64,000 nucleotides of DNA, from positions 496,001 through 560,000 of the forward strand of contig CP030887.1 in NCBI GenBank assembly GCA_006969905.1, read 5' to 3'. Below are positions 2,907 through 8,938 of this stretch, piece after piece. Source of the stretch: Balneolaceae bacterium (lineage in GTDB: Bacteria > Bacteroidota > Rhodothermia > Balneolales > Balneolaceae). The notes under the pieces were generated by a model. It did not search any database, was not told where the DNA came from, and worked only from the letters and a program-made list of their open reading frames with translations. The position numbers and the translations under genes were made by a program. Position 1 is the stretch's first letter; every line of letters starts with the position of its first letter.

Positions 2907-4265
2907 ATGAAAAAGCTGATTTTCAACTCTTACAACCTGCCTATTCCATCGATTAGACATGACATTCAGCGCATTTCTATTCAGCAAAATGGGCAATCAT
3001 TTATTTATTTTCATGATCAGCTTAATTACGCCACTTCTGATTTTGCACTGCCAACTGATGCCGAACCCATACTTTCATTAATAGATGGAAGCCGAAGTGT
3101 GGAAGATATTTTGAAGTTCGGCTCGGATGAAATAACCAGGGATCAGATCCTGGAGTATATTCAGTTCCTGGATGAACATGGCCTTCTCGAATCTGAGTAC
3201 TTTACAGAACAAGCTGAACTCATAGAAAGTGAATACGAAGCATCTTCAAAGCACACCAGTACAACGGCTGGTAGTTCGTATCCTGATGATCCCGATGAAA
3301 TCCTCACTTTCCTGGATAATGTTTTTTCTGCACATCCAAACTCAAAGCCCGTAAAATATGCCCGGGCTTTGTATGCCCCCCATATCGATCCCCGTGTTGG
3401 AATGGCCGGGTATGTAAAGGCATTTTCCGCAATCAGAGAGTTAAAACCTTCCCGGGTCGTTATCCTGGCCACTTCCCATTATTCCGGATTGTATAGTGAT
3501 TTATATGAAGAGTCCCCGTTCATTATCTCAGATAAAACATTTGTAATGCCTAATGGTGAAGTCAAAAGCGATATTGCCGCCATTCAGAAATTGAAAAAAA
3601 TTTCAGTACCTGAATTCAATTCCAAACGAGAACGGATCCTGAAACAAGTTCAGGATAACCCGGTTAAAGAAAATCCAGGTGGAAAAAATAGTCGTCATGC
3701 TGAACTTGATTCAGCATCTGTGGACGCTTCGAAATTTGGAATAAGTTTTCATGACCGTGCCCATCGCATCGAACATAGCATAGAGCTTCCCCTGTTATTC
3801 TTGAATTATATCTGGAACCACGATTTTGAGATCATCCCTATCCTTGTCGGTAATCTTGATGAGCTATTGTACAGTAAAAACAGTCTTAAGGAGCAAAAAC
3901 TGGGTTCCTTTTCATCCCTATTGAGAGAGCAATTCAAAAATGATAAAGAAACATTCTTTTTAATCAGTGGTGATCTCTCACACTTTGGGCATAAATTTGG
4001 AGATGAACAAGCCGCTTCAACTATGTTTGAAGAGGTAAAAATTAATGACGAGTGTTTTTTAGAAACCGGAGCTTCAGGAAGTCCTGAGAGACTCATTTCA
4101 TTAATGAAGGAAGAATATGACCCCTACCGGGTTTGTGGATTCCCTCCTTTACTCACTTACCTTAAAACCTTTCCAAAGCATTCCGGCAAAATTCTTTCCT
4201 ATGATTTGTGGGATGAACGAGAGCAGGAAAGTGCTGTTAGTTTTGGAAGCATCCTTTATCAATAA
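2907..4265 (+). CDS. Memo-family (AmmeMemoRadiSam system protein B) protein with PqqD-like N-terminus
   Basis: This protein has 452 residues. Residues about 50-100 (PILSLIDGSRSVEDILKFG onward) resemble a PqqD-like winged helix. Residues 135-452 match the Memo family, with metal-site candidates H159 (APHIDPR), H191 (ATSHYSG), the EHSIE block at 289-293, H359 (GDLSHFGH) and C410 (VCGFPP). Family members sit beside AMMECR1 and radical-SAM proteins in a system whose reaction is poorly known; neither partner is visible here. Residues about 241-276 are not part of the family fold: they are the translation of two palindromic repeats inserted in frame. The gene follows nth by 21 bp and may be co-transcribed. 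Confidence 0.82.
   Translation: MKKLIFNSYNLPIPSIRHDIQRISIQQNGQSFIYFHDQLNYATSDFALPTDAEPILSLIDGSRSVEDILKFGSDEITRDQILEYIQFLDEHGLLESEYFTEQAELIESEYEASSKHTSTTAGSSYPDDPDEILTFLDNVFSAHPNSKPVKYARALYAPHIDPRVGMAGYVKAFSAIRELKPSRVVILATSHYSGLYSDLYEESPFIISDKTFVMPNGEVKSDIAAIQKLKKISVPEFNSKRERILKQVQDNPVKENPGGKNSRHAELDSASVDASKFGISFHDRAHRIEHSIELPLLFLNYIWNHDFEIIPILVGNLDELLYSKNSLKEQKLGSFSSLLREQFKNDKETFFLISGDLSHFGHKFGDEQAASTMFEEVKINDECFLETGASGSPERLISLMKEEYDPYRVCGFPPLLTYLKTFPKHSGKILSYDLWDEREQESAVSFGSILYQ
3636..3717. repeat. Two palindromic repeats inserted in frame inside the Memo-family gene
   Basis: Two perfect inverted repeats with 8-bp arms and 5-nt loops lie 40 bp apart: atcctgaa/ttcaggat (3636-3643/3649-3656) and atgctgaa/ttcagcat (3697-3704/3710-3717). 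They are read through in frame as ILKQVQDN and RHAELDSAS. The RHAELDSAS string is a familiar translation of dispersed bacterial palindromes. The segment falls between family-conserved blocks, so the reading frame survived the insertion. Confidence 0.75.
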
Positions 4266-8118: not shown

Positions 8119-8186
8119 GTCATTCCACGGCGTATGCCTGGAATCCAGAACTGTTTCCCCTCGTTCCGATGCTCTGCGCCGGAACG
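8119..8186. repeat. Two adjacent REP-like palindromes upstream of the RAYT gene
   Basis: The first palindrome (8122-8144) has arms attcca/tggaat and is preceded by gtc, as in the family at 720. The second (8162-8186) has arms cgttccg/cggaacg around a gctctg core. It belongs to the gttccg...cggaac family also seen at 46336 and 49083. They lie about 60 bp upstream of the RAYT start, the usual place for REPs recognised by a cognate RAYT. Confidence 0.75.
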
Positions 8187-8245
8187 ATCCTCCACCCTAT
8201 TTAAAAAAATGTAAGGGGATAGCTTTCCGGCTGATCTGGCCCAGT

Positions 8246-8785
8246 ATGGGAAGAAGCAGGTATAAAATTCTGGACGAGGACTATCCATACTTTATAACGT
8301 CAAGTGTAGCAGGAAAACTACCTTTATTCACAGATCAAAATATGGCTACGATTATAGTTGATGGATTCAAGTTCTTAATCCAAAAGCGCAATATTCAAAT
8401 ATATGCGTATGTCATCATGCCCAACCATATACATCTTATCGCTGAAGGAAAACATGTAGCAAAGCACATTTCCAGTTTCAAATCTTTCACCGCCAGAATG
8501 ATCATTGATTTTCTTGTAAATAAAAGAAGAGCCCATGAACTGAACATTTTGAGAAGTGCTAAACCGATACATAAAAGAGATCGTGAATATCAGGTTTGGT
8601 CGGAAGGTTTTCATCCAAAAGAAATCAGTTCTGATAAGATGATGGAGCAAAAGATTGCATATATACATTACAACCCGGTAAAAGCCGGATTGGTTTTTGA
8701 TGAACCAGACTGGCAATATTCCTCAGCCCGATGTTATGCTGGCAAACCTACTGACTTGCCTTTGACTTTCTTCGGAGCGAGGTAA
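8246..8785 (+). mobile_element. REP-associated tyrosine transposase (RAYT, Y1_Tnp family)
   Basis: This 179-residue HUH-type single-strand transposase has the HxH metal site in MPNHIHLIAEG and the catalytic-tyrosine helix in YIHYNPVKAGLVFDEPDWQYSS, both hallmarks of Transposase_17/Y1 proteins. The frame stays open 43 codons upstream, but that stretch is repeat sequence and unlike the family. The family start MGRSRYKI at 8246 is therefore preferred. RAYTs act on REP palindromes at single-strand level and are thought to spread them. REP-like hairpins flank the gene at 8122-8186 and 8902-8921. Confidence 0.88.
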
Positions 8786-8901
8786 AGAATGCCACTCCAG
8801 CTAATGATAGGAAATCATTCTGTGGCCTGTCTACGCAAAGCCTTGCACAACCAGACATATTCCCGGAATCCTGAACTATTTGATGGTTATTCTTGCTCAA
8901 G

Positions 8902-8921
8902 ATTCCTGCCTTCGCAGGAAT
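8902..8921. repeat. REP-like palindrome downstream of RAYT
   Basis: Perfect 8-bp arms attcctgc (8902-8909) and gcaggaat (8914-8921) with a 4-nt loop, followed by gac. The same palindrome occurs at 48970-48989. Confidence 0.75.
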
Positions 8922-8938
8922 GACTAACACTTTTTTAC

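Follow-up and report, generated by a model that had tools for sequence, protein, structure and literature searches.

The gene for a Memo-family protein in a Balneolaceae bacterium contains, well inside its reading frame, two perfect palindromes that are in frame with the rest of the coding sequence. What are these palindromes, and how did they come to lie within a coding sequence? We studied them in a window of 64,000 nucleotides, to which the coordinates below refer. Our reading, to which we give a probability of about 85%, is that a REP (repetitive extragenic palindromic) element of the Balneolaceae has entered Memo in frame as a dimer, in a hypervariable segment that tolerates insertions, and that REPs have occupied this site on more than one occasion. 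The identity of the repeat, its copy number, its frame, its absence from other orthologues and the presence of other REPs at the same position are direct observations. The features concerned are as follows.

2907-4265, plus strand: gene for the Memo-family protein, host of the insertion; open reading frame (ORF) of 452 aa
3555-3740, plus strand: variable segment between G217 and G278, which exceeds that of same-genus orthologues by about 38 residues (protein alignments)
3634-3659, minus strand: REP unit A, GTTATCCTGAACTTGTTTCAGGATCC on the minus strand, reading ILKQVQDN; palindrome at 3636-3656, 2 mismatches to the 26-bp consensus
3660-3693, no strand: spacer of 34 nt between units A and B, without similarity to the REP
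3694-3719, plus strand: REP unit B, GTCATGCTGAACTTGATTCAGCATCT, reading RHAELDSAS; palindrome at 3697-3717, exact match to the 26-bp consensus

The host gene and its palindromes

The product of the ORF matches the Pfam domain Memo (PF01875) with 112 bits and the NCBIfam model AmmeMemoSam_B with 76.7 bits. Besides the Pfam match, membership in the Memo family is indicated by the conserved His and Cys positions, which are kept: H159, H191, H359 and C410 are invariant across the orthologue alignment and align with H, H, H and C of human MEMO1 when a profile of eight Memo orthologues is used; we take these human counterparts to be metal-site residues. Of the 92 genomes of the family, 75 have an orthologue. 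In the query and in the REP-carrying genomes the gene is adjoined by nth, by a GldC-like gene, or by both, which supports orthology. The insertion is placed after a stretch matched to approximately residues 103-115 of human MEMO1 and ahead of the conserved block RAHRIEHSIEL (EHSIE). AlphaFold predictions from one and two sequences gave pLDDT values of 36 and 41, with values below 50 throughout the Memo domain, too low for these models to be of use there.

The preliminary description had reported two perfect palindromes with 8-bp arms at 3636-3717, translated as about 36 extra residues. Indeed, the arms (3636-3643/3649-3656 and 3697-3704/3710-3717) are 8 nt long and 100% complementary, each pair encloses a loop of 5 nt, and both palindromes are in frame, reading ILKQVQDN and HAELDSAS. 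The measured number of extra residues is close to the one given there: the interval between G217 and G278 comprises 60 residues in the query and 22 in the same-genus rows, a net excess of 38, which is more than the 86-bp REP dimer alone accounts for. A decayed third REP upstream, at 3556-3633, was considered and rejected, since shuffled sequences reach its best score of 10 in 14-22% of cases and random windows do so in 7-11%.

The repeat family

The genome census of REP copies was built from pattern searches and retrieved stretches. The pattern TNCTGAAN5TTCAGNA has 69 matches in the 3.49-Mb genome against 1 for a reversed-pattern control, and the Memo palindromes are therefore not a chance occurrence; within the window, the Memo pair provides the only exact matches. 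When tag and tail are included, the 26-bp unit (consensus GTCATNCTGAAYTNRNTTCAGNATCT, up to 3 mismatches allowed) has 64 matches in the genome and 0 in the reversed-pattern control. Its 8-bp stem, ATNCTGAA, encloses a loop of 5 nt, and all 8 stem positions are paired in 52 of 63 units. In the tag, GTC is fixed in most units and is preceded by G (20 units), T (19), C (13) or A (11); the tail is CT, after which GTA, GTG, TAT or TTG is found in most cases. Three of the six reading frames of the unit are open (VILNLFQD, HPELVSGS/HAELDSAS and ILKQVQDD).

Inverted pairs lying within 400 bp of each other are typically of the +- type with tags outward (16 pairs, eight of them with spacers of 53-56 nt), and 4 are of the -+ type with tags inward, the orientation in which the Memo pair is found. 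By its copy number, palindrome and inverted dimers, the repeat is a REP-type element. A search of Rfam gave no relevant match, and a literature search for HAELVSAS found no mention of it.

Location of the copies

Copies within genes were scanned in the retrieved stretches, with a unit counted as internal when it lay at least 20 codons inside an ORF of 120 aa or more. Of the approximately 63 units of the query genome, only those of the Memo pair are credibly internal, and the others lie between genes or at ORF ends. Thus the earlier proposal that the palindromes of this organism can invade coding sequence holds for Memo, but not as a general habit. Two further ORFs of this genome contain internal matches. 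One, of 137 aa, lies opposite another ORF and is probably spurious. The other is an ORF of 296 aa (G000:C1:1129062-1129950, L154) that matches the REP unit with at most 2 mismatches at VILNLVQHL; from the motif ER[VILNLVQHL]SGIAT we presume it to be nadC-like, and the match is probably a coincidence with native sequence.

Such a coincidence is what one would have to assume for Memo if its palindromes were native coding sequence resembling the repeat by chance, and the nadC-like gene probably provides one instance. At the control rate, however, only about 0.0004 matches are expected per gene, and Memo has two, one of them without a mismatch in its 26 bp, tag and tail included. Since the segment is moreover missing in orthologues (see below), this explanation is refuted and has practically no chance of being right.

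When the scan was extended to 251 units in five genomes, with coverage of G012 incomplete, no recognisable gene apart from Memo contained a credible internal REP, and one was present in the Memo gene of each genome. The other internal matches were in ORFs of 121-144 aa or, in G012, a match with 3 mismatches. Elsewhere in the family there was one further clear case, in genome G031, where an ORF of the LuxE family (L301:661-1761, minus strand) contains an in-frame REP dimer with its tags outward (RHSELVSES...EILKRVQDD).

Orthologues without the segment

The extra residues are absent in 28 orthologues in the alignment of relatives and in 41 in the family alignment. Because these orthologues, which lack the approximately 38 residues, come from further Balneolaceae as well as from different families of the same order, the Memo segment is an insertion. 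The preliminary description had suggested that close relatives be aligned in search of an uninterrupted version, and that the segment would be an old part of the protein if distant orthologues carried it as well. Uninterrupted versions were found; orthologues outside the clade described next are without the segment, and nearer ones carry other versions of it.

In a tree built without the segment, the query, G077, G030, G012, G020 and three rows of genus g11 form one clade with support 100/99. The branching inside this clade is weakly supported, so that individual insertion events are not countable. In the same tree, the query Memo groups with genera g6, g14 and g11, apart from the other genomes of its own genus.

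We also considered an ancient REP common to all orthologues. This was rejected, since the loops of g1, g7 and g11 and most loops of g4 score near background for REP likeness; the scores of the loops of G018, G070, G072 and G074 are slightly raised. Note that the Memo gene of G024 (L010) has a different insertion at the same place, the STTNGQQGSSNAMQP region, which contains no REP.

The same position in other genera

The preliminary description had overlooked that REPs of the same or of another family occupy the same position of Memo in other genera, which makes the site itself unusual. One unit is present in G077 (AAATCCTGAAACAAGTTCAGGATGAC, minus orientation, reading ILKQVQDD), in G030 (GTTATCCTGAACTCGTTTCAGGATCT, plus orientation, reading ILNSFQDL) and in G012 (GTCATTCTGAACTCGTTTCAGAATCT, plus orientation, 26/26 to the consensus, reading ILNSFQNL), and G020 has a decayed plus copy with 3 mismatches. 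In these four genes the palindrome starts at the same codon, the 13th counting the glycine. G030 and G012 have orientation, frame and the loop CTCGT in common, and differ by a paired stem change (ATT/AAT against ATC/GAT) that leaves the palindrome intact. The segment is only 21-22 residues long in G077, G030 and G012, no longer than in REP-free orthologues, which indicates that the REP replaced native sequence there and was not simply added.

In the fourth genus, g4, the position is occupied by a REP of another family, of the type GTCATTCC...GGAATC, within 15 extra codons of the Memo genes of G072 and G075. The copy in G075 is GTCATTCCGCGGCGAAAGCCGGAATCT, and that in G072 is the same with one stem change. 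No REP was found at the Memo position of G070, the nearest relative of G072 (95% identical DNA).

These observations bear on the possibility of one inherited REP insertion that predates the divergence of the query, G077, G030, G012 and G020, with later alteration by inversion, by conversion with genomic REPs and, in the query, by the gain of a second unit. Such a history would account for the confinement of all carriers of the Memo-type REP at this site to one well-supported clade, for the identical start codon of the palindrome in the four genomes other than the query, and for the agreement of G030 and G012 in orientation, frame and loop. However, the orientation in G077, tags included, is opposite to that in G030 and G012, no REP is present in the three g11 rows of the clade, and the other REP family in the g4 genomes needs a separate event in any case.

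The conservation of the units is also hard to reconcile with simple inheritance. Outside the segment, the carrier Memo genes are 64-70% identical in DNA, and their third positions only 38-45%; with third positions so close to saturation, a unit that was simply inherited would be expected to be scrambled as well, yet 25-26 of the 26 consensus positions are kept in the copies of G012, G030 and G077. This favours a new arrival, or an exchange for copies from elsewhere in the genome, over plain inheritance. We consider a single insertion to be possible, at odds somewhat below even.

Alternatively, the hairpin might be retained for a function, in mRNA folding, pausing or stability or as a domesticated protein segment, instead of being a tolerated passenger. 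The RNA of the Memo REP pair folds as one long hairpin (-31.3 kcal/mol, z -2.7), and the paired stem change between G012 and G030 keeps the palindrome, as one would expect under such a function. The same change, however, would equally result if each gene had received a different variant of the genomic repeat, and almost all such variants are palindromic; furthermore, frames and orientations vary, and most orthologues have neither a hairpin nor a REP at this position. We consider a retained function to be improbable.

Proposed course of events

For the preferred reading, in which REPs entered a tolerant segment of Memo on more than one occasion, we envisage the following process. REP units would arrive by transposition, probably via a RAYT-type HUH transposase. 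An insertion of suitable length and phase would add a short peptide without stopping translation, because three of the six frames of the unit are open. The segment is presumably surface-exposed, and the insert near-neutral for the Memo protein. The site appears to have been filled repeatedly: units, orientations, frames and REP families differ among genera, which would reflect several arrivals or a turnover of units and not a single inherited event. In the query, the tags-inward arrangement with a 34-nt spacer is unlike the commoner tags-outward arrangement with about 55 nt, and the pair may thus represent two separate arrivals.

We suggest more tentatively, with chances rather short of even, that, throughout the Balneolaceae, REPs preferentially land or are exchanged at one codon position of Memo, with units of two families arriving, inverting, decaying and being replaced there. 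If this is true, a segment of a protein is being rewritten repeatedly by mobile palindromes.

Comparison with known elements

REPs within genes, including dimers that encode 20-30 residues, are documented (PMC3733652); intragenic REPs are thus already known, and the unusual part is the repeated occupation of one site. A precedent is recB of two Xanthomonas species, which carries different REPs at about the same site (PMC3733652), whereas the Memo site is occupied across several genera and by two REP families. The resulting natural series at one protein site (empty, one REP in either orientation, a dimer, a REP of another family) could reveal by what route REPs move, whether their turnover proceeds through insertion or through conversion, and how large a foreign peptide can be accommodated in the fold of an enzyme.

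The intragenic REPs of the GTAG/CGTC superfamilies (Di Nocera et al. 2013, PMC3733652) resemble the Memo-type REP in being small tagged palindromes with an 8-bp stem and a 5-bp loop and with A and T at the first two stem positions, and in being mostly intergenic, often inverted dimers, and sometimes in frame. In particular, the Memo-type REP agrees with the description of CGTC-type REPs in that paper in its stem (8-9 bp), its loop (4-5 bp) and its initial A and T, but differs from it in its tail, which is not CCA, and in its tag, whose first base varies among units (C in 13 of 63). No association with a transposase is reported for CGTC families (PMC3733652), and likewise none was found for the Memo-type REP.

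The palindromic elements (RPEs) of Rickettsia, to which the insertion had been likened at the outset, are an apt analogy, since RPE-4 and RPE-6 are CGTC-type REPs grouped with the tagged REPs (PMC3733652). Like the Memo REPs, RPEs are palindromic repeats that add in-frame peptides, and they enter unrelated genes. Classical RPEs are about 150 bp long, and nearly half of them lie within genes (PMC10969869); compared by description only, the Memo REP differs from them in its unit of 26 bp, in the single gene affected in the genome, and in the phylum of its host.

The second REP family and transposases

REPINs, or RAYT-mobilised REP doublets, resemble the query family in their inverted pairs with preferred spacing, and the query genome does contain IS200-like RAYT genes, represented by five Y1_Tnp matches. 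Unlike in that system, none of these five genes is flanked by a Memo-type REP unit (the nearest is a copy with 7 mismatches near genome position 2833707), and the Memo pair has its tags inward with a spacer of 34 nt.

Hairpins of the second family, GTCATTCC...GGAATC, have 38 matches in the query genome, 5 in G070, 13 in G072 and 42 in G075. Seven of them are in the window, at 720, 815, 8119, 8924, 11568, 18435 and 48992. The window also contains a gene for a REP-associated tyrosine transposase at 8246-8785 (NCBIfam REP_Tyr_transpos, 108.8 bits), which is flanked by inverted second-family hairpins at 8119-8145 (plus) and 8901-8924 (minus), and the region 8119-8924 as a whole resembles a REPtron of the second family.
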